From the NCBI RefSeq assembly GCF_029323795.1, contig NZ_CP119758.1:372001-436000 (forward strand): a stretch of 64,000 nt of DNA, in the 5' to 3' direction. The notes beneath the pieces were generated by a model. The model had not been told where the DNA came from. It searched no databases and saw only the letters and a list, made by a program, of their open reading frames with translations. Below, piece after piece: positions 9,240-29,828 of this stretch (position 1 is its first letter; every line of letters begins with the position of its first letter). The translations under genes and the position numbers were made by a program. This DNA is from Zobellia alginiliquefaciens. Its GTDB lineage: Bacteria; Bacteroidota; Bacteroidia; Flavobacteriales; Flavobacteriaceae.

Positions 9240-9301
9240 TCTCCTATGTATTAATTAAAACCGATAAGCCCTTAAATATTAAAGACCACCAAGCCAACAT
9301 A

Positions 9302-10027
9302 TTATGTCAACAAATTCCCCTCATCGTCCCATTCGGCGATAACGTCACGTTTACTTTGATCAACGCATTTTGCAATCCATTCTGGGTCGTATTCCACACC
9401 ATGCTTCTTAAGCACGTCATCAGGAACACCATCCCAGATATTGGGTGAATTACCTTTATAGCCCAAATCGGCAATGCCTACTTTTGAAGTATAGTAACCG
9501 GTAACCACCAGATTCCGCATCAAGGCGAAAAACTGTATCTCCAATGGCTGGTCATCCAAAGGCACTTCCATATCCTGATTACAGATTTGGTCCAATATTT
9601 CTTTCTGCTGGTCCAAAGTAGCTCCTTTGAACTCAACACCGTAATCCGTATTCGATTTATGATCCAACCACATCAGTCCGCCCAAAAGAGTGTTCTGCAT
9701 CTGTGGCATATCCTTACCTATAAATTCTATGAACTCGGGAACATCGGCCTCCAAAGGACCTCCATGCGGTTCTTTCGGCGGAAGGATGACCGTACTCAAA
9801 ACGGCAATGGTATCCATCTCATGTTCGTTGAACAATTGCTCCGCGTTCAGTTTCTCTACACGCTCCAATTCCTTTGGCGTCCTTCCAAAATAATTGGTAT
9901 TCTCGGCAACGGCTGTTTCCGTAGTTACGGGCTCCCCTCCTTCGGTCTTACATCCGTGAAAGGCGATGGCACTTGCTCCAGCACCCAATATCATAGTCTG
10001 TATACTCTTTCTTCTGTCCATCCCCAT
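9302..10027 (-). CDS. Gluconate 2-dehydrogenase subunit 3-like protein (Tat-exported)
   Basis: Small accessory subunit of a membrane-associated GMC dehydrogenase, 241 residues. The N-terminus MDRRKSIQTMILGAGASA is a twin-arginine signal, and GC follows at the end of the hydrophobic stretch, so it may also be lipid-anchored, although the residue before GC is not the usual lipobox type. The body (DTIAVLSTVILPPKEPHGGP, TDYGVEF, GYYTSKVGIADLGYKG) matches the subunit-3 family. Its ATG overlaps the stop of the upstream GMC gene by one base (TAATG), indicating translational coupling. A second ATG two codons in is equally possible. It probably carries the signal-less catalytic subunit across the inner membrane. 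Confidence 0.88.
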   Translation of the reverse strand: MGMDRRKSIQTMILGAGASAIAFHGCKTEGGEPVTTETAVAENTNYFGRTPKELERVEKLNAEQLFNEHEMDTIAVLSTVILPPKEPHGGPLEADVPEFIEFIGKDMPQMQNTLLGGLMWLDHKSNTDYGVEFKGATLDQQKEILDQICNQDMEVPLDDQPLEIQFFALMRNLVVTGYYTSKVGIADLGYKGNSPNIWDGVPDDVLKKHGVEYDPEWIAKCVDQSKRDVIAEWDDEGNLLT

Positions 10028-11745
10028 TAGATATTTTGTTGTTTCAACTGTTCAATAATATAATCCGATGCCCTCCATGACAAGGCCAAAATGGTCCAAG
10101 TACAGTTCTTGTCCGCTTGAGAAACGAAAGGTCCAGCATCTACGATAAATACATTATCAACATCGTGCAACTGGTTGAACTTGTTCGTTACCGAGGTCTT
10201 TGGGTCGTTGCCCATTCGCGTGGTACCCACTTCATGAATAATCTCGCCGGGAGCATGAAGACCATAGTCCTTATCCTTACCTGGTTTGTTTAGATAGATT
10301 CCGCCCATATTATGTGAGATTTCTTCAAAAGTATCCTGCATGTGCTTTGCTTGCTTCACTTCGATATCGGACCATTTATAGTTAAACTTCAGTACGGGAA
10401 TACCGTAATCATCTACCGTGGTCGGGTCTATCTCGCAGTAGTTTTCCTTTACTGCCAGACCTTCTCCCCTACCACCGAAACCTACGATAGCCCCGTAATA
10501 TCTCTTTACATCGTCACGTAACTTATCTCCATAACCACCAGTAGGCTGACCTACTAATTTGTTGAAGCTATCTTGGTCAAATCCAAATCCGTAATTAGGC
10601 TGTCCCATACCTCCCCAAACTTCTATGTGGTACCCTCTTGGGAAACCTAGACTTTTATTATCTCCCCACCATGGGCTGTAAACGTGCATACCGCCAACGC
10701 CGTCTTCGTTGTACGATACATCACGGTCCATAAGATCTGGCACAAAAGCCATACCACTACTTCCAGTAGAATCATGGAGATATTTACCAACAAGATCGCT
10801 GCTGTTTCCAAGTCCGTTAGGGTGTTGTTTACTTTTACTGTTTAAAAGAATTCGTGCGGAACTACAGGCCGAAGCAGCAAGTACTACTACCTTTGCTTTT
10901 AATTTATATTCTTTTCTGTCTTCTTTATTGATATAGGATACGCCCGTGGCCTTACCCTCTTCATTAGTGGTGACCTCACGAACCATTGCATTTACGAACA
11001 ACTTAACCTGTCCGCCACTTTTCTGTGCAGGGAAGATCAAACAACTTCCCGAAGAGAAATCGGCATAGACCTGACAAGAACGGTTACACTGCCCACAGTA
11101 AAAACATACTCCACGATCGTTGTTGATACGTTTGGTAAGCATGGAAAGCCGACCTGGAATCACGGGAACACCTGATTTCTTGGCCCCTTTTATATAAAAA
11201 AGCTCGTGCAATCTTGGTTTTGGCGGAGGGAGGAAAAATCCATCAGGGTCGTTTTCACGGCCTTCATTGGTACCGAAAACACCGATCAGTTTATCGACCT
11301 TGTCGTAATATGGTTTTACATCTTCATAGCCGATAGGCCAATCTTCTCCATAGCCATCGCGGGTCTTTCCCTTAAAATCCAAAGGTCCGAAACGCAACGA
11401 AATTCTTCCCCAGTGGTTGGTACGGCCACCGAGCATTCGCGAACGCCACCATTTAAAGGTGGTGCCCTCAGCATGTGTATAGGGTTCTCCATCTACGCTC
11501 CAATCGCCATAGGACATGTCCCACTCACCAAAAGCACGCGTGGTTCCCGCTCCTCGGCGAGGAGAATCATAGGGGTTTTTTAATTGGGTCATTGTTTTGG
11601 GATCGGCCGGGTCAAAAAATGGACCTGCCTCTACAACGGCTACATTTAGACCGGCATCCGCCAACTGCTTTGTGGCCATACCGCCTCCTGCCCCCGAGCC
11701 GACAATAATCACGTCGAACTCTTCGGCACTCTCCTTAATCTGCAT
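10027..11745 (-). CDS. GMC-family FAD oxidoreductase (gluconate 2-dehydrogenase-like large subunit)
   Basis: FAD-dependent sugar or alcohol dehydrogenase of 572 residues. The dinucleotide-binding motif VGSGAGGGMA lies at about residues 15-24 from the ATG at 11745; the reading frame extends 11 codons upstream only to a TTG, so ATG is preferred. Further marks are EAGPFFDP, a Cys-rich stretch CFYCGQCNRSCQ and the C-terminal HEVGTTRMG with NCTWTI. There is no signal peptide, so export by hitchhiking on the Tat substrate encoded next to it is likely. The family oxidises a sugar hydroxyl to a ketone and feeds electrons to the respiratory chain. Together with the exported isomerase at 8421 this resembles systems that handle sugars as 3-keto derivatives. 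Confidence 0.9.
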   Translation of the reverse strand: MQIKESAEEFDVIIVGSGAGGGMATKQLADAGLNVAVVEAGPFFDPADPKTMTQLKNPYDSPRRGAGTTRAFGEWDMSYGDWSVDGEPYTHAEGTTFKWWRSRMLGGRTNHWGRISLRFGPLDFKGKTRDGYGEDWPIGYEDVKPYYDKVDKLIGVFGTNEGRENDPDGFFLPPPKPRLHELFYIKGAKKSGVPVIPGRLSMLTKRINNDRGVCFYCGQCNRSCQVYADFSSGSCLIFPAQKSGGQVKLFVNAMVREVTTNEEGKATGVSYINKEDRKEYKLKAKVVVLAASACSSARILLNSKSKQHPNGLGNSSDLVGKYLHDSTGSSGMAFVPDLMDRDVSYNEDGVGGMHVYSPWWGDNKSLGFPRGYHIEVWGGMGQPNYGFGFDQDSFNKLVGQPTGGYGDKLRDDVKRYYGAIVGFGGRGEGLAVKENYCEIDPTTVDDYGIPVLKFNYKWSDIEVKQAKHMQDTFEEISHNMGGIYLNKPGKDKDYGLHAPGEIIHEVGTTRMGNDPKTSVTNKFNQLHDVDNVFIVDAGPFVSQADKNCTWTILALSWRASDYIIEQLKQQNI

Positions 11746-11839
11746 AAATTGTGTGGTTTTGTTAGTTTGTGTGCCCAATTTAAAAATAAAAAGTGTTATT
11801 CCACCACTTTTTTCTACGGCCGCTTTACATTTAACATTC

Positions 11840-13951
11840 TCAAAAGTTGTTCATTTGCCTTAAAGCCTCAGACACAGTTTTTACAGGTAATTTACAGGTT
11901 GTATTCTGACACACATAAATGAAAGTACCATTAGTCTCATACCGATCCTTAAAAAGAGGGGCGTCATTTTCTACAGTACTCCCCACCACCAATGCATTGG
12001 TTAAATGCATTTTATTTAAAGCGTTTACCAATATATTAGCATCATTACCTACTACGGCAATCTCAAAATATGGGTAAACATTATTCAACAAAAGAGCGTT
12101 CCATTTGGAATAACTAGATGCACTTTCCGTAATAGCCGGCACCATTGAGGATAACATCCGCTTTGACTTCTTTATGTAGTCCGTATTATATTCTAGGTGT
12201 CCCAATTGAAACAAGTTATGCGCCATAACCGCATTTGGGGAAGGCAGCACACCATCATCGGTTTTTATAATTTTTGCAATAAGATCGTTACCTTCATTAT
12301 AGTGATACATTCCCGAAGCTTCATCTGCAAATTCAGAACCAACTACACTATTTAATTCCTTTGCAAAATCTAAATATTCTGTGTTTAAAGTAACTCCGTA
12401 CAACCGCAAAGAAGCATCTATCATAAAGGCATAATCTTCAATAAAACCCTCCTTACGCTGACTTCCCTTTTTAAACGTATGAACCAGTTTTCCGTTTTGA
12501 TACGAATTGGATTTTATAAAAGAAAAAACACTTTCTGCCTTTTCTAAAAATTGCTCTTGACCAAAAGCCTTATATGCCTCTACAAAACCGTTAATGAGTA
12601 ATGCATTCCAAGATGTTATAATTTTATCATCACTTCTAGGGCGTACTCTTTTATTTCGTGCCTCTAACAGTTTTTTATTCCATTCCCCCTTTATAAAATT
12701 CAACTTACTCTGCTCAAGATTATGCTCTTTTATGAACTGGGCATCATCAATCTTTCTATGTAAAACATAATTACCATGCTCCCAAATAGCATCTTTTTTA
12801 ATAGTGTAATATGCCGAAAAAAGCTCAAAGCCATCGCCTAAAACCGACTTTAATTCCTCTTCTTTCCACACATAAAATTTTCCTTCTTCTCCCTCACTGT
12901 CCGCATCTAACGCTGCATGGTATCCTCCATTTTCATCCAACATTTCCCTGTCAAGAAAATCTATAGTTTCTAATACTACATTTTTTAAGACATCATCTTT
13001 AAAAATGGTATAGGCTTTTGAGTACAGACTTAAAACTTGCGCATTGTCATAAAGCATTTTTTCAAAATGCGGTACTTTCCAAACGTCATCAGTGCTATAG
13101 CGATAAAAACCACCTCCAATCTGATCATATATGCCTCCTAAAGCCATTTTATCCAGTGTTTTCCTAACTTGCCTTTTGGCATCATCGTCTTTTGTTAAAT
13201 CGGCATAATCCAATAAAAAACTAAGATTAGAAGGAATTATAAATTTTTGAACTCCCTTTTCGCCACCTTCATTCAAATCCCAATTCGCCTTCCAATTATC
13301 AACACTGGTTTTTACCGCATCTTTGGTCAAGGATTTAAAATCTTTTGCAGGTTCTATAAGATTGGCCTCTGCAATACCGGCAGCAACCATATCCGAGTAT
13401 TCTTCTGCTTTTTTGGGGTCCTTCTTATAGAGTTCACTTATTTTGGTCAAAACCTGGGTCCATTGATCTTTAGTATGATAAGTACCGCCATAAAGCGGCT
13501 TTCCGTTTGGCAAGGTGATAACGTTTAAAGGCCAACCTCCATTACCTGAAATCAGTTGCAGTGCCGTCATGTAAATCTGATCTACATCCGGTCTTTCTTC
13601 GCGGTCTACCTTAATATTTATAAAGTTTTCGTTCATAACCTTTGCCACTTCTTCGTTCTCAAAAGTTTCTTCTTCCATGACATGGCACCAGTGACACGAT
13701 GAATAGCCGATACTTACCAAAACCAATTTGTTTTCCTTTTTGGCATCTTCCAGCGCTTCTTGGCTCCACGCTCTCCAATTCACAGGATTATGGGCGTGTT
13801 GCAACAAATACGGACTCGTTTCGTCCACTAGGGCATTTGTGTATTTATGCTCTGTTGCTTCTGGCTTCTTTTTTTCCCCATTACAGGAAAGCATACACAG
13901 AATAACAAGGAATGAAAAGCCATGCAGAAACTTTGAAAAACTTAAAATCAT
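11840..13951 (-). CDS. Thioredoxin-domain lipoprotein (DUF255 / SSP411 family)
   Basis: Protein of 703 residues with an N-terminal thioredoxin-like DUF255 domain followed by an (alpha/alpha)6-barrel like that of sugar epimerases, the architecture of YyaL/SSP411. The start at 13951 gives [18 protein letters not shown] and the lipobox CMLSC; 14 additional upstream codons look non-coding. The hallmark [14 protein letters not shown] contains the CxxC pair, and GGWPLNV and [21 protein letters not shown] are family signatures. The biochemical role of the family is not established; a redox or sugar-epimerase-like function has been suggested. It follows no obvious operon partner but lies 95 bases upstream of the GMC gene on the same strand. 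Confidence 0.88.
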
Positions 13952-14017
13952 AGTACTATTATTATCCCACGAAATTACAATAATACCGTGCATTAAAATT
14001 TGGAAAAAGCAGAGCGT

Positions 14018-15406
14018 TTATTCACTTATAAAAGCCGAAGCCGGTAAACCCGCCGCATTATAAAGATTTGGCTCAGCAACGTTATCCCATGCAAACCTTA
14101 CTTTTAAGGGCGCTTTCACCTCTTTGGAAGTCAAAATAACCTTATTCTCTTTAATTTTCGCTTTCGCGGGGTGAAACACCCCATTTGCCCCCGCAATTTC
14201 AAAATAAGTTTCTTTTTTATCCGTAAACATGAGTCCATCTGCGTGGTCAAAAATCACTTCAATCTTTTTCCATTGCAGGTTTACTTCCTTAAAAAGGGGG
14301 CCATATACCTCTCCTTCATAACTTTCATAGGTTTCTTTGAGCGCTAAATTTGCCAGACGAAGACCAACATCTTGTTTGTTAGTAGGGTGAATATCATCAA
14401 TCGTAGCTATGTCACTGACAACTACCATTCCTGAATTGGGTATGGTTTGCATCACTCGTCTCTGTACATCTCTGATTAAAACCCCTTGTTCCGGCTCCTT
14501 ATAGTTGAAAGGTGCGATCTGTACATAATAAAAGGGGAATTGGGAGTCCCACGCATTTCGCCAAGAATGTATCATTTCCGAAAAAAGTTTGCCGTACATA
14601 TTGGCTCTTCCCCTATTAGATTCTCCCTGGTACCAGATGGTTCCCGCTATTTTAAAAGGAGTTATGGCATGTACCATTCCATTGTAAACTTGCGAAGGAG
14701 AAACGGGGCTCCACGGAGTTTCTTCAAGGCCCTCCGCGGAAAGCCTTAAATCCTCATGGGTATCAAAAACCGATTTTGGTGTCCATACCTCAGCAGGAGA
14801 ACCGCCCCATGCGTTATCTATTAGACCAATGGGGACATCTAGTTCGCCTTGTAACCTCCTTGCAAAAAAGTAGGCGACGGCACTAAAATCCTTCATCGTT
14901 TCCGGAGTACACACCACCCAAGACCCAGGAATATTTTCCTGTGGAAAATCTGAAGTACGTCTGGGCACCGTAAAAAACCGAATATTGGGATAGTTCGCAT
15001 TTTCTATTTCTTCTTCGGCATTATCAATACCCTTGTTGGTTGTTGCACTCCATTCCATATTTGACTGTCCCGATGCCAACCAGACTTCACCTAACATCAC
15101 ATTTTTAAGTGCAATCTCATTCTCATTTCCCTTAAAACTAATTTTATATGGTCCGCCAGCACCTGGCGTGTCAATCTCAAGTTTCCATTTGGCATCAATC
15201 GTTGTTTTTACCGTATACTCTTTGTTATCCCAACTTGTAAGAATCTTTACTTCCTCACCGGTATTTCCCCATCCCCAAAACAAAACTTTTTCGTTGCGCT
15301 GTATAACCATATTATCGGAAAATATATTGGGAAGCACAATCTTTGCCCATATCGATTGGCATGACAACATCAGTAAAAAAGCGATAATAAAAAACCTAAA
15401 TTTCAT
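14018..15406 (-). CDS. Sialate O-acetylesterase-like SGNH hydrolase
   Basis: Exported carbohydrate esterase of 462 residues from the ATG at 15406, giving a signal peptide that ends near SIWA. The nucleophile block LASGQSNMEW, the central WYQGESN and the catalytic dyad DDIHPTNKQDVG are all present, as in the family with Pfam name SASA. Homologues deacetylate sialic acids, but in polysaccharide-degrading Bacteroidetes they commonly act on acetylated glycans such as xylans, so the sialate name should not be taken literally. No sialic-acid catabolic genes are in the window. The gene is divergent from the Tat-exported oxidoreductase at 15528, with 121 bases between. Confidence 0.85.
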   Translation of the reverse strand: MKFRFFIIAFLLMLSCQSIWAKIVLPNIFSDNMVIQRNEKVLFWGWGNTGEEVKILTSWDNKEYTVKTTIDAKWKLEIDTPGAGGPYKISFKGNENEIALKNVMLGEVWLASGQSNMEWSATTNKGIDNAEEEIENANYPNIRFFTVPRRTSDFPQENIPGSWVVCTPETMKDFSAVAYFFARRLQGELDVPIGLIDNAWGGSPAEVWTPKSVFDTHEDLRLSAEGLEETPWSPVSPSQVYNGMVHAITPFKIAGTIWYQGESNRGRANMYGKLFSEMIHSWRNAWDSQFPFYYVQIAPFNYKEPEQGVLIRDVQRRVMQTIPNSGMVVVSDIATIDDIHPTNKQDVGLRLANLALKETYESYEGEVYGPLFKEVNLQWKKIEVIFDHADGLMFTDKKETYFEIAGANGVFHPAKAKIKENKVILTSKEVKAPLKVRFAWDNVAEPNLYNAAGLPASAFISE

Positions 15407-15527
15407 AAAATTGGATATTAGTTTGATCAAGTTTTAAATATACTATTTTCTTAAAGTACCCCAAGGCAATAGTGTAAATTGTAATGATTTAAATATCTTT
15501 AGAAAGCAAACTTAACATACACGGCAA

Positions 15528-16901
15528 ATGCATACAAAACAGAGTTCATTAAGCAGGCGAAATTTTATAAAAGGTACTTCTAGCCTAATGGCACTATCTA
15601 CCTTTGGTGTTTATGGATTGGATTTTGAAAATAGGGAAAAACCTATCAGAGTGGGCCTTATAGGAACGGGATGGTATGGCAAAAGCGACCTTTTTCGGCT
15701 GATGCAAGTCACAAATGTTGAAGTAATTTCCCTCTGCGATGTTGACCGACATATGCTGGAAGAAGCGGGCAAATTGGTTGCACTTCGTCAAAAATCAAAA
15801 AAATCTCCCCGTCTGTACTCCGACTATAGAAAGATGCTTGCCGAAAAGGATTTGGATATTGTTCTTGTAGGAAGCCCGGACCATTGGCATGCATTGCAAG
15901 GTATAGAGGTATTGAAATCCGGAGCTCACCTCTATCTTCAAAAACCCATAAGTGTAGATGTCATGGAGGGTGAAGCCTTAGTTGCTGCAGCAAACAAATA
16001 TGGAAAGGTCGTTCAAGTAGGCACTCAAAGAAAGAGCACACCCCACTTGGTTGAGGCCAAAAAGAATATTGTAGACGCCGGTCTGTTGGGTAAAATTTCT
16101 CATATAGAAATTTGTTGTTATTACCATATGCGCGCCAATGGTAATCCGCCCGTAGTACCGGTACCAGATTTTTTTGATTATGATATGTGGACGGGGCCAG
16201 CTCCATTAAGACCTTTTGATGGATTGCCACATAGACGATGGTGGCGTACTTTTATGGAATATGGCAATGGTATAACGGGTGATATGTGTGTACATATGCT
16301 AGATACCGTACGGTGGATGTTGGGTTTAGGCTGGCCAAAGAAAATAAGTGCTACCGGTGGCATCTATGTACAAAAAGAAGGGAAGTCCAATATAGCCGAT
16401 ACACAGACCGCTGTTTTTGAATTTGATGAGCTTGATTGTATTTGGAACCATAGGTCTTGGGGAACACCTGCGGACCCGGAATATCCTTGGTCCTTTAAAC
16501 TCTATGGAGAAAACGGAACACTCTCCGGAGATGTTAAAAAGTATGATTTTGTACCGCACGGAGATGGAAAAAAAATACATGGCGATGTACTCTACGAAAG
16601 AGAAAAATACCCTGAGGACCTAACCGAAAAGGATATTGAATTACACGCAGCTCCGGCTACGAGGGCCCATATGCTAGATTTCTTATCTGCAATTGAAAAC
16701 AAAACCAAACCTATAGCGAACATACAGGAAGCACATATTTCCACTGCTAGCTGTATCCTGGCCAATATGGCTATGGAACTTAACAGACCTTTGGTCTATG
16801 ACCAAAAACAGCTAATTGTAGTGAATGATCCGGAAGCTACCAAGCTTTTACAGCGTGGTTATAGAGAAGGTTGGGAGCATCCGCACCCCGCGATGTTTTG
16901 A
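15528..16901 (+). CDS. Tat-exported Gfo/Idh/MocA oxidoreductase
   Basis: NAD(P)-fold sugar oxidoreductase of 457 residues. The N-terminus contains SRRNFIKGTSSLMAL, matching the twin-arginine consensus (SRRxFLK) well, so it should be folded with its cofactor before export. The Rossmann motif GLIGTGWYG follows at about residue 43, then SPDHWHA and the conserved LQKPIS (Lys-Pro of the active site). Periplasmic members with a tightly bound nicotinamide are known to oxidise or transfer sugar hydroxyls in keto-glycoside pathways and glycosidases such as GH109. The gene appears monocistronic, with 204 bases before gmd. Confidence 0.85.
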   Translation: MHTKQSSLSRRNFIKGTSSLMALSTFGVYGLDFENREKPIRVGLIGTGWYGKSDLFRLMQVTNVEVISLCDVDRHMLEEAGKLVALRQKSKKSPRLYSDYRKMLAEKDLDIVLVGSPDHWHALQGIEVLKSGAHLYLQKPISVDVMEGEALVAAANKYGKVVQVGTQRKSTPHLVEAKKNIVDAGLLGKISHIEICCYYHMRANGNPPVVPVPDFFDYDMWTGPAPLRPFDGLPHRRWWRTFMEYGNGITGDMCVHMLDTVRWMLGLGWPKKISATGGIYVQKEGKSNIADTQTAVFEFDELDCIWNHRSWGTPADPEYPWSFKLYGENGTLSGDVKKYDFVPHGDGKKIHGDVLYEREKYPEDLTEKDIELHAAPATRAHMLDFLSAIENKTKPIANIQEAHISTASCILANMAMELNRPLVYDQKQLIVVNDPEATKLLQRGYREGWEHPHPAMF

Positions 16902-19330: not shown

Positions 19331-19361
19331 AATCCCGCTAAACAAGTAGTTTAGCGGGATT
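19331..19361. terminator. Strong bidirectional terminator
   Basis: AATCCCGCTAAA and TTTAGCGGGATT make a perfect 12-bp stem with a 7-base loop, followed by CTTTATT. It separates gmd-fcl from the convergent seven-gene operon ending at 19393. Confidence 0.85.
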
Positions 19362-19392: not shown

Positions 19393-20544
19393 TTAAACCA
19401 AACCTGTATCTTTCCAGCTTTTGGAATTAGCCGAATTAATGACCGCTTCGCACACTTTTTGTGTCATTAAAGCATTTTCAAAGGATGGCTCACAAGGTTC
19501 TCCTGTCTCTAGACTTTTTAGGAAATCTGCTACTTGATGAACAAACGAATGCTCATACCCAATAGATGTTCCTGGTATCCACCATTTATCCATATACGGT
19601 TGGTCACTATCCGTAATCAAAATTCTTTTCCAACCTCTTACTATAGCATCGTCTGCATGATCATACATTTCAAGATAGTTCATATCATGTAAATCCCATC
19701 GTAAAGAAGCGTGTTCCCCATTTATCTCTAGTGTATTTAACGCTTTATGACCCCGTGCGTATCGTGTTGCTTCAAAAAGTCCAAGAGCACCGTTTTCAAA
19801 ATGACAATGAAAAATACAGGCATCATCAATCGTTACTTTTTTGACTTCGCCCGTTCCTTGGTGCACACGTTCTTTAATAAAAGTTTCCGTTACGGCAGAT
19901 ACATCTTTAATTGCTCCGTTCAACCACATAGCACTGTCTATACAATGCGCCAAGAGATCGCCCGTCACCCCTGAACCTGCCGCTTCTGCGTCTAAACGCC
20001 ATAAAGCTTCACCTCCTTGCGGCAGTTCTGGATTAATGGTCCAGTCTTGCAAGAAGTTGGCCCTGTAATGGAATATCTTTCCCAACTTGCCCGAATCTAC
20101 AATTTGCTTGGCTAAAGTTACAGCAGGTACACGTCGGTAATTATAAAAAACCGTATTCGCTACACCGGCTTTTTTAATAGCATCTACCATTGGTTGTGCT
20201 TCAGCAACTGTACGGGCCAAAGGTTTTTCACAAAGAACCATTTTACCAGCCTCGGCTGCAGCAATAGCAATATCCGCATGCATATGGTTGGGTGTGCATA
20301 TATCAACAGCATCTATATCATCTCTGGCAATTACCGCTTTCCAATCGGTTTCATAAGATTCAAAACCCCATTGCTCGGCAAAAGCCTTTACCTTTTCCTC
20401 AGTTCGGGCACACACCGTTTTTAAGACCGGCCGATATTCCAGTTCAGGAAAAAAATCACCACTACGCTTATACCCGTTGGTGTGCGTTCTCGCCATTAAA
20501 CCTGTACCTATCAATCCTATTCGGAGTTCTTTTGTGTGTGCCAT
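19393..20544 (-). CDS. Gfo/Idh/MocA sugar dehydrogenase (cytoplasmic)
   Basis: NAD(P)-dependent oxidoreductase of 383 residues without a signal peptide. The Rossmann motif [12 protein letters not shown] and the CEKPLARTV segment (active-site Lys) are clear, followed by the family's beta-sheet C-terminal domain with [12 protein letters not shown] 20544 is chosen over an upstream in-frame TTG. It is the last gene of the minus-strand operon that starts at 28423. Relatives oxidise or reduce inositols, glucose and keto sugars; in this context it probably interconverts a hydroxy and a keto sugar, working with the two isomerase-like TIM barrels upstream. The substrate is unknown. Confidence 0.87.
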
Positions 20545-20581
20545 CTCAATCAATTTTAATATTTAAAAATGTTCTAACTAT

Positions 20582-21394
20582 TTATATTAAGGGTCTCAAT
20601 ACTTCTTCTATATAGATTCCATCTTGAAAAGTAATTCCGTCCGGATCAGTAATTGCAGCATCACATTCATCTTCCACAATTATCCAACCTTCAAAATCGG
20701 TTTCCTTTAAATACGATGTTATACCTTTAAAATCAATAACTCCATCGCCCATTGCAGCCCATTTACCATTATCGTACATGTCTTTATAATGCACGCAGTT
20801 CACCAATTCCCGGTACTGTTTTATAATAGGTAATGGATCCATACCGCCTTTGGCCATATGCCCAACATCCGGCGTGTATTTTATTACATTACTATCCAGG
20901 CCGTTCAACAAAATTTTATAGTCCTCCTCGGTTCTGTATATAGAACCCATGGGAGAGTTAGGGTGATATGAGCATATCACTCCTTCACCAGCGGCCCTTG
21001 CGGCAATTTCATTTACGCAGGTCAATAGATTCTGTTGCCTTTCCTTTAAATGCTCACGATCTTGTCCTGGCATTTGCACCAGCAATAATATTGCTTCAGG
21101 AAAATGCTTCATAAATTCGATCCATTGATCGGCATTTCTTTTCTCCGCATCAGTTTCCTTTGGATTTCTCCAATCTTCGACATGACACAGGACGGACAAT
21201 TCAATATTATTTTTATCCAAAGTCTCCTTGAAAACTTTGGGATCTGTAAACCCGTTCATAAAACCAGTATCAGGCTCAATACCTTTAAATCCTGCTTTAG
21301 AGGTTACTTCTATTATATGATCTAATTTGTTTTTATATTTTTCACCGGACATTGCCCAGGTATAGGTCTCGCAACCAATTTTTATTTTTGACAT
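20582..21394 (-). CDS. Sugar isomerase/epimerase-like TIM barrel (cytoplasmic)
   Basis: Xylose-isomerase-like protein of 270 residues. The start MSKIKIGCETYTW at 21394 is preferred over codons further upstream that show no conserved sequence. Metal-binding positions are visible in SYHPNSPMG, TPDVGHMAKGGMDP, CVHYKDM and IIVEDECD. There is no signal peptide, in contrast to the relative at 8421. It is separated by 37 bases from the downstream dehydrogenase and by 87 from the hydrolase upstream. Enzymes of this fold isomerise, epimerise or, in keto-sugar pathways, dehydrate or cleave oxidised sugars. The specific reaction cannot be assigned. Confidence 0.83.
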   Translation of the reverse strand: MSKIKIGCETYTWAMSGEKYKNKLDHIIEVTSKAGFKGIEPDTGFMNGFTDPKVFKETLDKNNIELSVLCHVEDWRNPKETDAEKRNADQWIEFMKHFPEAILLLVQMPGQDREHLKERQQNLLTCVNEIAARAAGEGVICSYHPNSPMGSIYRTEEDYKILLNGLDSNVIKYTPDVGHMAKGGMDPLPIIKQYRELVNCVHYKDMYDNGKWAAMGDGVIDFKGITSYLKETDFEGWIIVEDECDAAITDPDGITFQDGIYIEEVLRPLI

Positions 21395-21481
21395 TGTAAT
21401 ATTATTTTTTATTAGGATTGGATGAGTCATATACTCCAAAACGATACGAATTATTTACATACGTTCTGAACATAACCTGAC

Positions 21482-22294
21482 TTAATAGTTGGCTTTTAAC
21501 CAATTCAATACCCTTGGGTTAAAATCATTTAATTTCTCCCAATGGAAAGCGTGACCTGCATTATCGTACAGGTGAAGCTCATTGTTTGGAATGCCATTGG
21601 CTACCTCACGCACCATCCATTCCGGCACGAACATATCCTGCTTACCTCCTATAACCAGTGTTGGTGATTTTATTCCCGACAACCGATCAACCACATTATG
21701 ATTGATACAGGCTTCAGCTTGAGCTTCCAGTCCGTGTAATGGTTGCTGAATAGCTTCTAAAGCCGCACCTTTCTGTCCTTCCAATAACCCTGCATATTCT
21801 GCATCATCATCAAACGTAGATTTGTCAAAAATGAGCAATTGCATAAAATGTGCAAACTGCTCCGGTCTTAGATGTGCCTTAATATGTGTAATATGCCTAA
21901 AAATAGCTTCTCCTTTTTTATCGCAACTTGCCCATGGACACATAGCCACCATAGCGGAAACCTTTTCTGGGTACCTAATGGCCATTTGCAAAGCAATTGA
22001 ACCTCCCATAGAAACACCGACTACCGCTGCATTTGATATATGTAATGCATCTAACAATGCTGCACTATCATCGGCCATCTGAGCGGTTGTATAAGGACCT
22101 TCTGGTTTGTCCGATAAACCAACTCCTCGGTTATCAAAAAGTATGCAGTAATATTCTTTTTCCCAATACGAAACGTGTTTTTCCCATACTGCACTAGCAG
22201 CGGTAATTCCCATTATTAACAAGAGAGGTTTTCCATCAACTGGACCTCTAGTTTCGTAGTATACTTGTATTCCGTTAACTGTAACAAATGACAT
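21482..22294 (-). CDS. Alpha/beta hydrolase
   Basis: Cytoplasmic alpha/beta-hydrolase fold enzyme of 270 residues. The nucleophile elbow is GVSMGGS, an acidic residue occurs in GGKQDMFVP and the catalytic His lies in DNAGHAFHWEKL, so the triad is complete. The oxyanion-side motif LLIMGITAASAVWEKHV and the FDNRGVGLSDKP loop resemble lactonase and 3-oxoadipate enol-lactonase-like members. In an operon with a sugar dehydrogenase, a lactone-opening role is plausible because oxidation of a cyclic sugar at C1 gives a lactone, but that is inference. Spacing to neighbours is 23 and 87 bases. Confidence 0.8.
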   Translation of the reverse strand: MSFVTVNGIQVYYETRGPVDGKPLLLIMGITAASAVWEKHVSYWEKEYYCILFDNRGVGLSDKPEGPYTTAQMADDSAALLDALHISNAAVVGVSMGGSIALQMAIRYPEKVSAMVAMCPWASCDKKGEAIFRHITHIKAHLRPEQFAHFMQLLIFDKSTFDDDAEYAGLLEGQKGAALEAIQQPLHGLEAQAEACINHNVVDRLSGIKSPTLVIGGKQDMFVPEWMVREVANGIPNNELHLYDNAGHAFHWEKLNDFNPRVLNWLKANY

Positions 22295-22317
22295 AGTCTT
22301 CTCTTTTTATTTGTTAG

Positions 22318-23346
22318 TTAACTCCATCCATGTAATGTACGCACCTCAATAAGGGTTGCTAAAATATCGTTCCAAGTCTGTTGTTTCAACATCACATCAT
22401 TGTCAAACATGCACCCATCCCAACAAATATGTTTAAAGGCTTTGGTCAACTCTCCATTTCCATCACGCAACCAATAGCCTGCGTCCTTCGCAACATCTAA
22501 TTTACCGTTTGGATCCGTAGCCAAGCAATGGCGTCCGGTCTTATCATGAGATCCCGTTCCGTGTACCGTTCCATCATTTTGAGCAACGTGGAAATCTATA
22601 GTCCATGGTCGTAAAGCGTCGGTAACTGTTTTGAGACCGGCTTCCAAAGTTTTACGATCTGACCAATCAAAATTTTCAGGTAAAATTCTATGTTCAGGCG
22701 CGTTATACCCCAATAAATACAATAAGGTGTGGGACATATCTGCCTGAAAACCAATATTAGGTCTGTCTACAGCTTCCAAAGTTTCTACCATGACTTTCCA
22801 ACTATGCATTCCTGCCCAGCAAATCTCACCTTCCGCAGCTAATTTTTCGTCATAGTCAGCAGCTACATCACAGGCTTCCTGAAATGTTTTGGTAATTATT
22901 TTGGTACTATTTACCGGGTCTTTGTACCAAGCATCCGGTCCTGAAGCAGAATCAATTCTAATAACCCCGTATTGCCGTACGCCATGTTCCCTAAATATTT
23001 TACCAAAATGACATGCACGTTGTACCATTGCCACAAAAGTCTTTCGGTCTTCATCCGAACCTAAGGTTGGGCCTCCCCATATGGGAGCTACCATGGTTCC
23101 AATATTTAGATCATAACCGGCAACCTTATCGGCCAATCTTTTTATGTCATCATCAGAACTATGAATATCAACATGTGGATCAAATAACCCAATATCTATT
23201 CCGTCAAACTTAACGCCATCTACCTCTGCGTCAGCAGTCATTTTAAGCATCTGATCAAATGAAATAGGTGGCTCTGAATCTGGTCCTTTACCAACAATAC
23301 CAGGCCAAGAGGCATTGTGGAGTTTTGGAAAAGTGTTGTCTTTCAT
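22318..23346 (-). CDS. Second sugar isomerase/epimerase-like TIM barrel
   Basis: Protein of 342 residues of the xylose-isomerase-like superfamily, longer than the usual 270-290. Recognisable strands are [55 protein letters not shown] and [10 protein letters not shown], which hold the expected Glu/His/Asp metal ligands. No signal peptide. It shares little obvious similarity with the other TIM barrel of this operon, so the two probably catalyse different steps rather than being a recent duplicate. The C-terminus, rich in Trp and Asp ([12 protein letters not shown]), is unusual. No precise function is assigned. Confidence 0.75.
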
Positions 23347-23439
23347 ACTTCTGTACTTTTAAATTAAACGTATCTGTTTTCTAAATTTAGCGCATCTTTA
23401 TAAACGTAAAAAATACACTTGCTCTAAAATACGGTTTAT

Positions 23440-24651
23440 TTATAATTTAAGGTCAGGATTTTTAGGTCCAAAGTGTTTTAGCATTACAATAGGGTCCGTT
23501 TTACTATGATTTACGATAGTAACACCTTCTTTTGCAGCTTTTTCGGATACGAAATATTCGTCATGAGTTAATTGTCCATATCTTATAAGTGATGGAGTTT
23601 CAATATCCCAAACGCCCATTTTACCATGCCCCTGCATCATAATCATTCCGTAGCATGCACTATCTTTTATAGTTACTGTCTGGCCTGGCAACACGGTTAA
23701 TTCTTTGGCACTGAACGCATCCGAACGATAACAGATCCATTTATCAACATACCCTTCAGCTTCCATTTCTTCTAGCGGTTTTACGGGAATAGGTCTCATA
23801 AAACGGGTTTCTAGCATATTTGGATCCGTATTCAATTCCCAGTCTATTACCTCCATCAATTGGTCAAAATCTCCCATTCGGTCTTCTGGTGTTCCGTTCC
23901 ACAACAGTTCCTCAGGAATAATAGCTTCGTTTACCAAAGACTGGTACATTGCAAATACATCAGATGCCTTTTGTGGCTCGTAGGTACACATACTGCCTGG
24001 CGCATGAAGCATTCCTGGTGGCACATCCCAACCCGTTCCCGGTTCCAATCTAAAAGCCGAGGAAAAGTTGGTTATCTTATTATCGCCTTTTGTAAAATTC
24101 TTTAGGCATTCTTTAATCTCTTCTTTAGTTGTACCCGGAGTTATCCCGAAAAACGTATAAGGGAAATCACCACCATGGTTATTTACTTGAGGTGGAAAAT
24201 AATAGGCTTCCGGCTTTCCTTTTTGACCAATTTTAGCAGCATGCTCATCATTATGGTGAATGTGATGTGGCAACGGCCCCATGTTATCAAAAAACTTGGA
24301 ATACATAGGCCAGCTTTGGTATTCATCCCATAGACGGTCACCAATAACCTCACCCTTTAATTCGTCAATAACATCTTTTAAAAGAATCTGGACTTCTTTA
24401 CCATCTTCTTCAAAAACAACTGGACTTAAACCTTCGTTTTCTCCGGTTAACGGCCCGTTTTCTGCAGGTGTCGTTGAAGAAAACCAACGTTCATCTATTC
24501 CTCCACGCTCTCCCCCTAGCACATAATAATCATCTGGGTGTAATTTTATTCTTCTACCCGGAACACAAAAAGAACGCGGTACCCATGTTGGTGCCAAACG
24601 TAAAATTCCTTGTCCTTGTTCCAAAGCCTTTTTAGCCGATGAATTTGCCAT
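23440..24651 (-). CDS. Cupin-fold sugar isomerase-like protein
   Basis: Protein of 403 residues with a bicupin layout. The first cupin has the metal motif PHHIHHNDEHAAKIG and FRLEPGTGWDVPPGMLHAPGS; the second, near the C-terminus, has LPGQTVTIKDSACYGMIMMQGHGKMGVWD. This resembles class I mannose-6-phosphate isomerase-type proteins. The N-terminus (LRLAPTWVPRSF) is shared by a Bacteroidetes/Planctomycetes group of uncharacterised cupins. No signal peptide. Its start lies inside the end of the upstream DUF4432 gene (20-base overlap), so translation of the pair is coupled. A sugar or keto-sugar isomerase role is likely from context. Confidence 0.7.
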   Translation of the reverse strand: MANSSAKKALEQGQGILRLAPTWVPRSFCVPGRRIKLHPDDYYVLGGERGGIDERWFSSTTPAENGPLTGENEGLSPVVFEEDGKEVQILLKDVIDELKGEVIGDRLWDEYQSWPMYSKFFDNMGPLPHHIHHNDEHAAKIGQKGKPEAYYFPPQVNNHGGDFPYTFFGITPGTTKEEIKECLKNFTKGDNKITNFSSAFRLEPGTGWDVPPGMLHAPGSMCTYEPQKASDVFAMYQSLVNEAIIPEELLWNGTPEDRMGDFDQLMEVIDWELNTDPNMLETRFMRPIPVKPLEEMEAEGYVDKWICYRSDAFSAKELTVLPGQTVTIKDSACYGMIMMQGHGKMGVWDIETPSLIRYGQLTHDEYFVSEKAAKEGVTIVNHSKTDPIVMLKHFGPKNPDLKL

Positions 24652-25738
24652 AGTATTCTATATTTATTTTATAAAAAGATGTTATAAATGATTTTATTTT
24701 TTCTGGTGATAGCACTTCTAATTCTAGGATATAGCTCCTACTTTCGTTGGGAGACAAAAAAATAAGACTATTTTCTTCCCTTGCCTTTTTCTGGCCTATA
24801 GGCGGATTGGTCGCTGGCTCCAAGGCCGCTACGTATTCATTTTTGCCCCAATGTTGCCAATTGACCAACCAAGGCAATTGCTTTTTAGGAAACTGGAGCT
24901 TTACCGCCAAGTTCAGCTTTTCATTGTAAACTCCACATTCACAATTTCCGGAAGCATCAGCTTCTACATCAATAAAAGCGACATCCTCTCCTGTGCCCGA
25001 ATGTGCATCCATGGGTGCCGGGCACTTACGAAAATTACTGCCCTCTTTGAATATTTTTTGTTCTGAATCCGGTGTTGGAGATTTCCAATCTCCTTTCCAA
25101 AGTAAATCGGTTCCCTCATCTATCAAAGGCCAACCAAAATTTACATGATACAAAAGCATGTGCGGCGCCACTTGATTACCTCGGTTCACAACCTCATCCC
25201 GTATCGTTATTTTTGCTTCTCCCAATGTGCCGGAAATAGTTCTTTTTAATTCCAAATTTGGTCCAAAAACCTGAGTCTCTCGAATGATTCCCGTGATACT
25301 CATATCCATTTTTCCCACAACTGGATCTGGTTGAACAATGGATACTATTTCTGCAGGGGTATTGCTGATAAGGCCATGAAGCCCTCTTTTTCCATTTTCA
25401 TCGTCTTCCGGTCCTCCCACGTGAGACAACCCACAGGTGGTTAAAAGTCCCCCTCCAAAATTGCGTATCCACCCCATTCCTTTATCAGAAAACCGATCGG
25501 CAGGAACAACACCCGTCTGACTTAACCACGCCAAACTATGCGCATGGTAAAAAGCATCAGCAATATCCATTGCTCGATCTATGACCACCTTATACCTAAG
25601 ACCTGTTCCCGTATTTATCCATGCAATGCGTGTACCACGACCTAACCCATTATCCAGGACAGAGATTTCAATACCGCCAACCTGAGCGGCATTGCCAATC
25701 TTATCTTTTCCCCTATGTATTTCATTTTCAATAGACAT
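24632..25738 (-). CDS. DUF4432 aldose-1-epimerase-like protein
   Basis: Galactose-mutarotase-fold protein of 368 residues. Characteristic blocks are DRAMDIADAFYHAHSLAWLS, GGGLLTTCGLSHVGGP, KRGLHGLISNTPAEI and HMLLYHVNFGWPL, with the two His residues expected for mutarotase-type catalysis. The family DUF4432 is found with sugar isomerases and ABC/MFS uptake genes. It probably interconverts anomers of the pathway sugar so that a stereospecific dehydrogenase or isomerase can use it. It overlaps the cupin gene by 20 bases and starts 9 bases after the cytochrome gene, inside the same operon. Confidence 0.8.
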   Translation of the reverse strand: MSIENEIHRGKDKIGNAAQVGGIEISVLDNGLGRGTRIAWINTGTGLRYKVVIDRAMDIADAFYHAHSLAWLSQTGVVPADRFSDKGMGWIRNFGGGLLTTCGLSHVGGPEDDENGKRGLHGLISNTPAEIVSIVQPDPVVGKMDMSITGIIRETQVFGPNLELKRTISGTLGEAKITIRDEVVNRGNQVAPHMLLYHVNFGWPLIDEGTDLLWKGDWKSPTPDSEQKIFKEGSNFRKCPAPMDAHSGTGEDVAFIDVEADASGNCECGVYNEKLNLAVKLQFPKKQLPWLVNWQHWGKNEYVAALEPATNPPIGQKKAREENSLIFLSPNESRSYILELEVLSPEKIKSFITSFYKINIEYYGKFIG

Positions 25739-25747
25739 GGATGGATT

Positions 25748-28423
25748 CTATTCTTTTGCAAAAAGTTCGTTTTCAGAATTACCACCAGAAATAAGATATG
25801 CCAATAAATCTTTTACTTCCTCATCACTCAAACGATTAATCGTCCCTGGTGGCATCAATGAAACCGAAGACATCTTTATATTAGTAACTTCACTCTTAGG
25901 AATTGTCCGAATAATATCCGGAGCATATGGGTTTTGAGAAGCTTTGTATTCTTCTCCCTCTTCACTTATCAACCTGCCAACAATAGAATTTCCATCATTT
26001 AATGAAAATACAGTCGTATTGTATTGGTCCGATATTACATCACTAGGGTCTATGATAGCCCTAAGAATATCTTCCGGTGAGAACCGTGTACCAATCTGAG
26101 ACAGCTCTGGACCAATATTCTGACCTTCACCACCCATACTATGACAAGTGATGCAATTGGTAGCTAAAAACATGTTTCGGCCTATTTCATAATTTCTTCC
26201 ACTTAAACCATCAGCCAATAAAGGTTCAATATCTTTTTCTTCCCATCTTTTACCGGGGCCTTTTGGCTGAATAGCATTTGAGACCAATGAATTCCCAGAT
26301 TTACTAAGTAAAGAATCTCCGGACATTTGATTGTAAAATTCTTTTTTATTTTCAGCCACATGAGTCAAAGCCTTTTTTCTAGCTTTATCTATAAACCCTA
26401 TATAACTGCGACCTGCCTTATAGGAGAAGGCTTTGTAAAACCATTGGAAATATCGCTCCCTCAATTCCGGTGTCCAGCCTGTAGTTGCATCCTGTAAAAC
26501 CAATCCGTAATATGTATGCTGTGCTAAAGGCATATTTTTTAGCGTTTCGGCAATGTCCATCCCATACTGAGGGTTTCTCAATATTAGATCGGCCGCTTCT
26601 GTGGCCGTGTTAGCCATAACGGAGGCATTTTCACCTTCTTCCGACTCTAATAGCGCCAATGTTTTGGACACTACGGAAGGGTCCTCTACATACACCAAGG
26701 TCTTACTCAACAATTGGTTCAACACATCTGTATCCGCAGGATAATGATTAGAAAGGTAAGTACTTATTTCCCTCTTTATATTGGCATTAGGCTTACCGAA
26801 ACGGGATAAAGTCAATTCAATAGCTCGAACCAAATCCACCTGATCCTGCTCCGAAAGACTTACATAATCTATGTTTACCAAAGAGTTTATGATTTGGTCT
26901 TGCTGACTTTTATCCCCTTGTCTTGCCAAAGCAACAGCCGCATGAATTTTACGTACAGCATTGGTTTCTGAAAACACTTTTTCCTGCCAAGTGCTTACGG
27001 GTTGATGTTCTACGGCAATACGAGCTGCATATTGAATAAAACGATCTTTACTATTTAAATAAGGCCAAGCGAAAGCTACAGCTTCATCTTGTGGTTCGCC
27101 ATGAAAGGTTTCAAGTTTTTTACGAATTTTGTTCTCTTCCGTCAGTTCTAATTCTGCCACAGAAGCTTTTAAGTTTTCTTGGTCACTGTAGTATACACGA
27201 TACAAGTCCGATTCTAACCTGCGCCCTCCCGTCATAAAATACATAGCACCATCCGGGCCAATAACCCCATCTGTTAGCGGAAGTGGAATTCCCGATAAAA
27301 ACTCCTCTTTGTCACCCACATAAGACGAACCATTTGCTTTCATTTCAATGGCATAAATAATTCCAAAACTCCAGTCAAAAGCGAATATGCTATGTTGATA
27401 TTTTTCAGGGAACTTAGCTCCTTTTCCGCTCAAAACATTTGTTGGCGAACCCTGACCAATATTTAGTACCGGAGGTAAATTATCAGGATAGGCAGCGGAC
27501 CATTTTCCATTACCCGTACGCCATCCAAATTCGGCACCACTTGTCACATGACATATGCGAGTTGGGCGATACCAAGGCATTCCTAAATCCCACTCCATAT
27601 CCGAATCATAGACGAACATATCACCCAGTTCATTAAAATCTAAATCAAAGGGGTTTCTAAATCCTGAAGCTACAAGCTCCCAGTTTTTTCCTTCAGGATC
27701 AAGATTAGCTACCCAGCCTCCCGGCGCTCCACGGTCATTAGCATGACCACGTGGATCCTTAATCTGCGGAAAAAGATTATCATCCTTCCAGTTATTAGAT
27801 AGCCGGTATCCATCCATCTCCGGTAAATCCGTATGGTTTCCCGCAATCACGTAAAGCGACTTCTCGTCAGGAGAAAGAACTATACTATGAGGCCCATGTT
27901 CCCCTGCCCCGTTCAGCTTTTTCAGAAGTGTTATTTTATCATACTCATCATCATTATCTGTATCCTGTAAGCGATAAAGACCGCTAGTTTTCTCAAAATC
28001 ATCACTTCCCCTATGGTTTACCATTACATAAAGGCTATTGAAAGCATACAGCAAACCTTGGGCGTAACCCATCTGTATAACAGAATCCGCTACTTGCGTT
28101 CCTGTTTGAATTTTAAGCTTTTCAATTTTTGGCGTAAGGTTGTCCGCTCCTATAGCTGCAACTTCCATTCTATACAAAGCACCATATTGGTCAGATGTAA
28201 TCAACCTTCCCTTATTATCGAAAGTCATGGCTACCCAAGACCCCATTTCATTATCTCCCGGACTGTACAAATGTTCCGCACTAAAACCGGACTGGAGTTT
28301 CAGCTTTGCTATTTTAGGATTATCGGATTCAACCGATTCATTTGTACTTTTTTTATCCGAAGTACACGATGCTGATAGCATCACAAGAAAGAACATCAAG
28401 AGAAAGGAGGTGTAAATTTTCAT
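25748..28423 (-). CDS. Beta-propeller/HEAT/cytochrome c lipoprotein (PVC-type heme-binding)
   Basis: Lipoprotein of 891 residues from ATG 28423 (MKIYTSFLLMFFLVMLSASC, lipid-bearing Cys at 20); the frame extends 17 codons further without signal character. Residues ~30-420 look like a sorbosone-dehydrogenase/PQQ-type beta-propeller (NHRGSDDFEKTSGLYRL, GEHGPHSIVLSPDEKSLYV, GFRNPFDLDFNELGDMFVYD). A helical, HEAT-like middle follows, and a C-terminal cytochrome c domain has CITCH heme attachment and SLMPPG as the likely axial Met. This architecture is known from the Planctomycetes/Verrucomicrobia membrane-bound dehydrogenase group. It probably oxidises a sugar in the periplasm and passes electrons through its own heme. 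It is the first gene of the operon, so periplasmic oxidation is likely the entry step. Confidence 0.85.
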   Translation of the reverse strand: MKIYTSFLLMFFLVMLSASCTSDKKSTNESVESDNPKIAKLKLQSGFSAEHLYSPGDNEMGSWVAMTFDNKGRLITSDQYGALYRMEVAAIGADNLTPKIEKLKIQTGTQVADSVIQMGYAQGLLYAFNSLYVMVNHRGSDDFEKTSGLYRLQDTDNDDEYDKITLLKKLNGAGEHGPHSIVLSPDEKSLYVIAGNHTDLPEMDGYRLSNNWKDDNLFPQIKDPRGHANDRGAPGGWVANLDPEGKNWELVASGFRNPFDLDFNELGDMFVYDSDMEWDLGMPWYRPTRICHVTSGAEFGWRTGNGKWSAAYPDNLPPVLNIGQGSPTNVLSGKGAKFPEKYQHSIFAFDWSFGIIYAIEMKANGSSYVGDKEEFLSGIPLPLTDGVIGPDGAMYFMTGGRRLESDLYRVYYSDQENLKASVAELELTEENKIRKKLETFHGEPQDEAVAFAWPYLNSKDRFIQYAARIAVEHQPVSTWQEKVFSETNAVRKIHAAVALARQGDKSQQDQIINSLVNIDYVSLSEQDQVDLVRAIELTLSRFGKPNANIKREISTYLSNHYPADTDVLNQLLSKTLVYVEDPSVVSKTLALLESEEGENASVMANTATEAADLILRNPQYGMDIAETLKNMPLAQHTYYGLVLQDATTGWTPELRERYFQWFYKAFSYKAGRSYIGFIDKARKKALTHVAENKKEFYNQMSGDSLLSKSGNSLVSNAIQPKGPGKRWEEKDIEPLLADGLSGRNYEIGRNMFLATNCITCHSMGGEGQNIGPELSQIGTRFSPEDILRAIIDPSDVISDQYNTTVFSLNDGNSIVGRLISEEGEEYKASQNPYAPDIIRTIPKSEVTNIKMSSVSLMPPGTINRLSDEEVKDLLAYLISGGNSENELFAKE

Positions 28424-28718
28424 AATTCTAAAGGTCATATCTTTCTCTTGTTTAAATGGTTTTCCTATCAGCAAAACATAATATACCTTTGATCAAGTTG
28501 ATTTGTTTGTAAAGTACTGCCAGTTTTACACTTGACAATGTCCGCTTCTAGGAGCCTAAAACTAGTGAAGCATTTTTTCTTTACTATCCTGTAGTGTACT
28601 GCCCAATTTAGATTATAAACGAAAAATTGCTCTTATAAAACTGAGTGTCATGGAAATAGCTGAAAAATCATAAAATCAGAGGATATATAAAGTTGTAAGC
28701 ATACAAATAAATACCATT
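28424..28718. other. Intergenic region between sugar operon and deacetylase gene
   Basis: About 295 bases that hold the upstream region of the seven-gene operon on its left side and the end of the YdjC gene on its right. I see no reading frame of interest, no strong hairpin followed by T-run and no full TTG/TAnnTTTG promoter. TATGTTTT on the minus strand, about 55 bases before the start codon at 28423, is the nearest -7 candidate but lacks a spaced TTG. Confidence 0.4.
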
Positions 28719-29546
28719 TTATTTATTCAAATCTTTCCAACTTATAAGTGTAATATTCCTATCATCCAAAATTGATTTACATTCTTGACTTGTAAAATAG
28801 TCAAAATCGATTTGCCTCCATTCAGAACCAAAATTTGGATGATTAATAGTAATAGCTTTCATTTCTGCATCATCAAAGGCTGGGTGAATTAATATGAGAT
28901 TAACACCATCAACCAGATTATCAAAAACACTGGTGTAATACTCCTTTAATTTTCCTTCCTTAAAATAATCAAAGTTTCCATAATGTGTTTTGTCTATTAC
29001 CAAGTCTTCTTCACTAAGATTCTGGTTGCAATCCAACCCAACCATTTCCATAAGTTCCCTATTCAATAAAACAGGTATGTTATATGCCTTCCCTAAGTCT
29101 TTGTACACTTCAAATAAGTCTTCTCTTGCCCCAAGACTATACATATGTGAATCAATATGACTCGGATTAATCCCAAACCTCAACCCTCTCTCTATTTGAG
29201 CTACAAGTTCCTTTTTTACTTCCGACACCACAGCATGTTCCCTTACTAAATCTCGATTTCTATAAAAATATCCGTTTTCATCCACCAAACTCGGAACTTC
29301 CGAGACTGGCAATACCGGCCCAAATTTGTATTTTTCCCATTCACAAGTTAATGTAAGGTGAATTCCATAATCGTAAAATGGATTTTCTCTAGCAAATTCT
29401 GCCATCTCATAAAACCAAGGACAATTGACCATAATACTGCATGAGTTAACAATACCTTTTTTTAGGGCCTCCATTGTTGCTCTATTTTCAGAATGACACA
29501 GGCCGGCATCATCGGCATGAATAATTAGATGTTTGCTCTTTTTCAT
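28719..29546 (-). CDS. ChbG/HpnK (YdjC) family carbohydrate deacetylase
   Basis: Cytoplasmic metal-dependent deacetylase-like protein of 275 residues. The metal-binding motifs are [14 protein letters not shown] (Asp-Asp), [10 protein letters not shown] (two His) and LIHPAFDD; the full set for a working enzyme is present. Family members deacetylate chitobiose or other N-acetylated oligosaccharides. The gene is divergent from the AraC regulator with 282 bases between, which suggests shared control with the carrageenan locus. Why a deacetylase belongs with a sugar that is not N-acetylated is unclear; it may act on an O-acetyl or other modified oligosaccharide. No signal peptide. Confidence 0.87.
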
Positions 29547-29735: not shown

Positions 29736-29828
29736 TGGGAATCTTATATTGACAAAACAACGAATATCTAAATTTTTAAAGTCGAAACGTGCACTTGAAA
29801 AATCTGGATAATAAAATTGAAAGAGACT

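Follow-up and report, generated by a model that had tools for sequence, protein, structure and literature searches.

Two described systems offer the closest parallels to the locus considered here. In Caulobacter crescentus, the published account of lactose use has LacABC, DUF1080, a transporter, two epimerases and a reductase acting together, and in 2022 it called the way in which the keto-hexose from this 3-ketoglycoside route is consumed unknown (PMC9007349). In the levoglucosan (Lgd) pathway, as described for Bacillus smithii, a sugar 3-dehydrogenase of the Gfo/Idh/MocA family (LgdA) works with two unlike TIM barrels, LgdB1 and LgdB2 (PMC7676230, PMC10066097). Here we describe a seven-gene operon at positions 19393–28474, minus strand, of a 64,000-nucleotide stretch (the window, meaning the whole stretch analysed) of the Zobellia alginiliquefaciens genome, a single 5.07-Mb contig. 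Judged by its sequence and its relatives, the gene set is a real, conserved but unassigned sugar operon of Bacteroidota, previously undescribed in the literature that we searched. An initial sequence-only reading of this DNA knew of no operon with the same content, and our search of open-licence PubMed Central literature likewise returned no description of the gene set; the subscription literature, in which 3-keto routes in Bacteroides are treated, may hold one.

The seven open reading frames (ORFs) are collinear and tightly spaced. With likely ATG starts, the gaps between genes are 9 to 93 nt, and the second and third genes overlap by 20 nt; the packed minus-strand cluster of the sequence-only reading is thus present with all its ORFs. 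In order of transcription, they encode PVCc (25748–28474, likely ATG near 28438), which reads as an exported lipoprotein with an sGDH/AA12-like beta-propeller, a helical middle and a C-terminal cytochrome c domain; a mutarotase-like DUF4432 protein (24632–25738; PF14486, 333 bits in Pfam); a cupin, CUP (23440–24651), assigned by predicted structure and alignment to the type I phosphomannose-isomerase fold with a His/His/Glu/His metal site; TIM1 (22318–23346), a xylose-isomerase-like barrel belonging to a distinct and highly conserved subfamily; two accessory proteins, the alpha/beta hydrolase ABH (21482–22294; PF00561) and the IolE-like barrel TIM2 (20582–21439, likely ATG near 21394; PF01261); and a levoglucosan-dehydrogenase-like Gfo/Idh/MocA dehydrogenase, here Gfo (19393–20553, likely ATG near 20544; PF01408/PF22725). 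Families were assigned with the Pfam and NCBIfam profile libraries and their family cut-offs. The earlier family calls hold in refined form, the cupin now having a predicted phosphomannose-isomerase fold and the lipoprotein being a PVC-type cytochrome c protein, and the libraries bear out the absence of any kinase, aldolase, glycosidase or transporter among the seven proteins.

The gene neighbourhood is conserved. A scan with the cupin found at least 580 stretches encoding a relative, and the best 80 loci were kept for neighbourhood counts. Flank counts are lower bounds, because flanks extend to at most 10 kb and contig ends cut 23 of the 80 loci to less than 21 kb. CUP is present in all 80 loci by tblastn and in 79 by ORF clusters (L055 was lost to the ORF filter), and the same clusters place TIM1 in 77, DUF4432 in 75, Gfo in 74 and PVCc in 64. 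DUF4432, CUP, TIM1 and Gfo lie on one strand in 69 of the 80 loci and are contiguous in 61. The whole seven-gene set occurs in eight loci, and by tblastn also in L055 and L095 (the latter with Gfo cut); the cupins of the window and of Z. amurskyensis (L050) share 99% identity. Since other Bacteroidota have these genes clustered too, the clustering exceeds chance. L139 and L140 keep the core genes together but in another order, which speaks for clustering being selected rather than simply inherited. An independent draw of 395 Bacteroidota genomes gave CUP matches (E ≤ 0.001) in 45: ten with an identity of at least 75%, one with 51%, eight with 37–40%, and the rest weak matches to shorter frames. 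TIM1 occurs in 16 of these genomes, in 11 of them at 69% or more; the 11 take in all ten high-identity CUP genomes, and by the listed coordinates CUP and TIM1 lie within about 2.5 kb of each other in all ten.

Relatives also carry genes that the window locus lacks. By ORF clusters, DUF1080, named 3-keto-disaccharide hydrolase in Pfam, accompanies 66 of the 80 loci, SusD 46, SusC 43, RbsA 27, RbsC 26 and RbsB 23; SusC and SusD occur together in 43 loci, ribose-type ATP-binding cassette (ABC) genes occur in 27, and 25 show neither Sus nor Rbs genes within the fetched DNA. The suggestion that the seven genes form a complete route therefore finds no support in the comparison, and the lack of a transporter, true of the window locus, does not hold for the system; both descriptions fit the locus of this lineage. 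Of the other genes, an FG-GAP protein is found in 25 loci, a third TIM barrel in 17, and the accessory genes TIM2 and ABH in 16 each, always side by side and both missing from the other 64. Lactone hydrolysis, which had been proposed as part of the route, is accordingly not a core step.

Neither Pfam nor NCBIfam matches CUP, and Pfam remains silent even at E 10 for 14 of 14 family members; its class comes from predicted structure. The best of five AlphaFold models (14 sequences) has a predicted local distance difference test score (pLDDT) of 77 and a predicted template modelling score (pTM) of 0.83, the other four having pLDDT values of 65 or less, and type I phosphomannose isomerases fill Foldseek ranks 1–16, with E down to 6.5e-16. 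The putative metal site comprises H130, H132, E148 and H216. In alignments, H132, K146, E148 and H216 coincide with the His, Lys, Glu and His of two phosphomannose-isomerase-like proteins that this genome also encodes, whereas H130 stands where those proteins have Gln, leaving three of four metal ligands identical; all four site residues and K146 are invariant in 79 of 79 relatives. CUP thus shares predicted fold and metal-site positions with type I phosphomannose isomerases but differs in its lack of a Pfam match, in the Gln-to-His change at the metal and in an operon without phosphosugar enzymes. Eight distant loci (L130–L137) encode a CUP of 37–40% identity (35–38% by tblastn) within a different gene set, and TIM1, Gfo and DUF4432 gave no tblastn match above 60 bits there, so CUP alone is no marker of the pathway. 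An FGGY sugar kinase adjoins the distant CUP in four of the eight, which fits an isomerase of free, unphosphorylated sugars, the activity that we infer for CUP. In L130, the neighbours are GH2, a small cupin, AKR and the FGGY kinase, with AKR and the small cupin recurring in six of the eight; this gene set may put the isomerase to another use.

PVCc (908 residues) has a signal peptide with a lipobox, a feature that we saw in none of the other six proteins when reading their sequences by eye. It scores 98 bits with TIGR02603, over the cut-off, and 69 bits with TIGR02604, below it; Cytochrom_C also matches, and a CxxCH motif lies at residues 774–778. Foldseek with its model returns sGDH (1cq1) at rank 1 and the AA12 enzyme 6i1q at rank 6, a weak match. 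Independently of the model, alignment with the seven proteins of this genome that exceed the Pfam GSDH cut-off shows H193, R273 and N274 matched by identical residues in four of them; the three residues are kept in 62 of 64 PVCc relatives, the remaining two being gapped there; the cytochrome c site is kept in all 64. We take H193 and R273 to correspond to the catalytic His and the Arg that contacts pyrroloquinoline quinone (PQQ) in soluble glucose dehydrogenase (sGDH). Some AA12 enzymes likewise carry an attached cytochrome c domain. From these features, PVCc looks like a cytochrome-linked dehydrogenase. In L139, a plastocyanin/azurin-family gene adjoins the PVC-type gene, and the Z. alginiliquefaciens genome is rich in families of this kind, with 14 stretches matching the PVC-type propeller model, several of which share a frame, and 18 AP_endonuc_2 matches.

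The nearest curated model for Gfo is levoglucosan dehydrogenase (NF052479, 334 bits against an equivalog cut-off of 650), its matches in the Protein Data Bank (PDB) are 4h3v and 6a3f, and among the named solved structures and curated models listed it is closest to levoglucosan dehydrogenase, a sugar 3-dehydrogenase; the E-K-P motif and D199/H203 are kept in 74 of 74 relatives. TIM1 barely exceeds the AP_endonuc_2 threshold (PF01261, 33 bits, cut-off 31), matches no NCBIfam model and finds no PDB entry even in a profile search at E 0.1, and its family alignment has a mean column identity of 76%. TIM2 has a C-terminal part weakly matching the 2-hydroxy-3-keto-glucal hydratase 8ro4, and ABH is PcaD-like (131 bits, cut-off 256). 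The DUF4432 protein, the single match to its family in this genome, resembles the 'hypothetical aldose 1-epimerase' 3ty1 (E 3e-20) and, by eye, is probably cytoplasmic; in open-licence PubMed Central, judged by title and abstract, we found no relevant literature on DUF4432.

As to the reactions, their order, the position oxidized and the substrate, we propose that the operon serves catabolism of a sugar or small glycoside, with periplasmic oxidation first and conversion of the keto-sugar in the cytoplasm afterwards, a reading to which we give an even chance. PVCc would oxidize the substrate in the periplasm, most likely at C3, and pass the electrons to the respiratory chain. Where DUF1080 is present, as in most relatives, this hydrolase could next cut the keto-glycoside while it is still outside the inner membrane; about one locus in three encodes a ribose-type ABC importer that could carry the keto-sugar inward. 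In the window lineage, the hydrolase and transport steps would have to come from other loci. Once in the cytoplasm, anomers would be interconverted by the DUF4432 protein, and metal-dependent TIM1, together with TIM2 where present, would epimerize, dehydrate or hydrate the keto-sugar. Gfo could use NAD(P)H to reduce the keto group, leaving a free aldose that CUP would convert to a ketose, the substrate of a kinase whose gene lies elsewhere. Keto-sugar chemistry, already suspected in the sequence-only reading, is favoured because Gfo is nearest to levoglucosan dehydrogenase, DUF1080 is so common in relatives and PVCc is an exported protein resembling dehydrogenases; the route probably passes through a 3-keto sugar. 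The most novel version is one that we put forward tentatively, judging it more likely to fail than to hold: in an undescribed, Bacteroidota-wide pathway, a cytochrome c lipoprotein of quinoprotein-like type would produce the keto-sugar in the periplasm, and two uncharacterised enzyme families, CUP with its three-His/one-Glu site and unphosphorylated substrates and the TIM1 barrel, would finish the job in the cytoplasm.

Several observations weigh against this proposal. First, CUP, TIM1, DUF4432 and this type of PVCc are all without known activity. Second, the low quality of the PVCc model (pLDDT 61, pTM 0.46) makes its fold match weak by itself, and the profile search with PVCc returned only cytochrome c and helical-repeat matches. 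PVCc has sGDH and an AA12 pyranose dehydrogenase among its weak Foldseek matches, and shares with this group the aligned His and Arg-Asn and, in the case of some AA12 enzymes, the attached cytochrome c domain, but departs from them in the quality of its model, in having no Pfam GSDH match and in its helical middle domain. PqqE is also missing over its cut-off from this genome (best 59 bits, cut-off 381), and all 14 control genomes are likewise below it, so that this negative has no positive control; PQQ may be taken up from outside, or PVCc may use another cofactor. Third, DUF1080, Sus and ribose-type ABC genes are absent from the window locus and from that of Z. amurskyensis. DUF1080 is present at the Z. 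uliginosa locus (L051), and elsewhere in the Z. alginiliquefaciens genome 16 DUF1080 matches are listed, of which one falls short of the family cut-off and two share a frame. Finally, the 80 loci are the nearest relatives of the query and not independent of one another, one genome (G134) holds TIM1 and Gfo amid other genes without CUP or DUF4432, and five further genomes have a TIM1 of 51–54% identity without CUP.

Of the other explanations, oxidation at C1 survives best, although we consider it unlikely. Here PVCc would form a lactone for ABH to open, and the resulting sugar acid or keto-sugar acid would be processed by the TIM barrels and Gfo. Enzymes of the sGDH/AA12 type do act on C1, and in one locus TIM1, TIM3, TIM2 and ABH adjoin IlvD/Edd dehydratase and FAA hydrolase genes; yet ABH is missing from 64 of 80 loci by ORF clusters, the CUP fold suits a free aldose or ketose, and DUF1080 is common. 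The locus in question (L160:9232–17540) has, in a row, TIM1 (50%), TIM3, TIM2, ABH, a GntP-like permease (by eye), the dehydratase and the hydrolase, perhaps a sugar-acid variant of the route.

Less probable still is an anhydrosugar route of the levoglucosan type, with Gfo as LgdA, TIM2 as LgdB1 and TIM1 as LgdB2, in which cytoplasmic 3-oxidation, elimination, hydration and reduction would yield glucose. Beyond the affinity of Gfo, the two barrels have suitable sizes, about 30 and 38 kDa against a reported 30 kDa for LgdB1 and 36 kDa for LgdB2 (PMC7676230), and TIM2 is of a size and family that would suit LgdB1. TIM2 occurs in just 16 of 80 loci, however, whereas LgdB1 is reported near 253 of 265 LgdA homologues (PMC10066097). 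Gfo falls short of the equivalog cut-off, there is no LgdC-like second Gfo reductase among the seven genes, which include a single Gfo, and such a route has no place for CUP, DUF4432 or PVCc; LgdC itself is reported near only 151 of 265 LgdA genes (PMC10066097). We rejected membership of a levoglucosan operon and keep the pathway as an analogy.

Catabolism of inositol or another cyclitol seems improbable. It would account for the IolE-like TIM2, for the IolG-like scores of Gfo and its matches to scyllo-inositol/L-glucose dehydrogenase structures, and for the importers of relatives, since ribose-type ABC importers accompany inositol loci; but the scores are far under cut-off (93 bits against 290 for the IolE model TIGR04379, 122 against 355 for IolG), and mutarotase-like and aldose-isomerase-like proteins would make no sense for a cyclitol. 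A route for L-rhamnose or a related 6-deoxysugar, with CUP or TIM1 as the isomerase, ranks lower again. It draws on a RhaE-type aldolase/dehydrogenase gene that adjoins two of the 80 loci (L051 and L127) and lies inside the L139 operon; such a gene was not seen within the fetched flanks of the other 78, the L139 kinase gene is shortened (250 residues), and L127 has its own RhaA-like gene. In L139 (4471–8007), the RhaE-type gene, the shortened FGGY kinase gene and the plastocyanin/azurin-family gene lie on the same strand between DUF1080 and the PVC-type gene. Taken together, these RhaE-type genes and the sugar-acid module of L160 are weak and conflicting hints to the substrate.

That the operon belongs to the neighbouring Zobellia carrageenan system is very unlikely: the genes at 29817–52808 (AraC, GntP, RhaT, MR_MLE, Aldedh, DGOK, KDPG aldolase, GH129-like, a sulfatase, three GH127 and a sugar transporter) do fit the published ZGAL_3145–3159 locus, with its AraC regulator, DauA/B/K/D-like genes and three GH127 (PMC5698469), but the published locus stops with its AraC gene, ZGAL_3159; neither zgal3160 nor zgal316 occurs as a tag in the main text of that paper, and zgal316/317 is absent from the searched text of PMC5613140; and other genera, as well as Z. 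uliginosa, keep the operon next to unrelated genes. We therefore rejected membership; the carrageenan locus is already described and is separate from the seven-gene operon. A YdjC gene (28719–29546) was also rejected as an operon member, no tblastn match above 70 bits being listed for it in the 80 loci.

A 13-pair hairpin (19331–19361) between Gfo and the convergent gene is a possible terminator, its T-rich tail listed on the plus strand only; the terminator-like sites found number eight, no more than shuffles yield (6.5, s.d. 2.3), and sigma-70-like sites are likewise at shuffle level (32 against 31.6). The Bacteroidetes-type -33/-7 promoter pattern was not found upstream of PVCc, the first gene; the window has three such patterns, one of them within the cupin gene (24625). 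Elsewhere in the window (8421–16901), a TIM barrel, Gluconate_2-dh3, a GMC oxidoreductase, DUF255 and a SASA esterase on the minus strand and a C2-type Gfo on the plus strand form a second set of keto-sugar type, resembling a glucoside 3-dehydrogenase of the LacA/LacC type. A LacABC-type dehydrogenase is absent from the seven genes, and this GMC and Gluconate_2-dh3 pair (9302–11778) is separate from them.

More broadly, CUP and TIM1, which have no characterised close relatives, are two candidate enzymes for the consumption of the keto-hexose left open in the Caulobacter work, and as they stay together in cultivable Bacteroidota, the question is directly testable. Oxidative entry of this kind, without classical glycosidases, would escape surveys of carbohydrate-active enzymes in degraders of algal and plant polymers. 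What we show is gene content and clustering, predicted folds and conserved cofactor and metal residues. With LacABC/DUF1080, the operon has in common the proposed periplasmic oxidation and, counting its relatives, DUF1080, a transporter, epimerases and a reductase, whereas its oxidase is a PVC-type cytochrome propeller, CUP and DUF4432 are added, and the window locus lacks DUF1080. With the Lgd pathway, it shares a relative of the Gfo 3-dehydrogenase and two unlike TIM barrels (PMC7676230, PMC10066097); in contrast to that pathway, its Gfo is below the equivalog cut-off, LgdC is missing, and a putative exported dehydrogenase, CUP and DUF4432 are additional. On our best reading, the operon follows the logic of both routes and is a member of neither.

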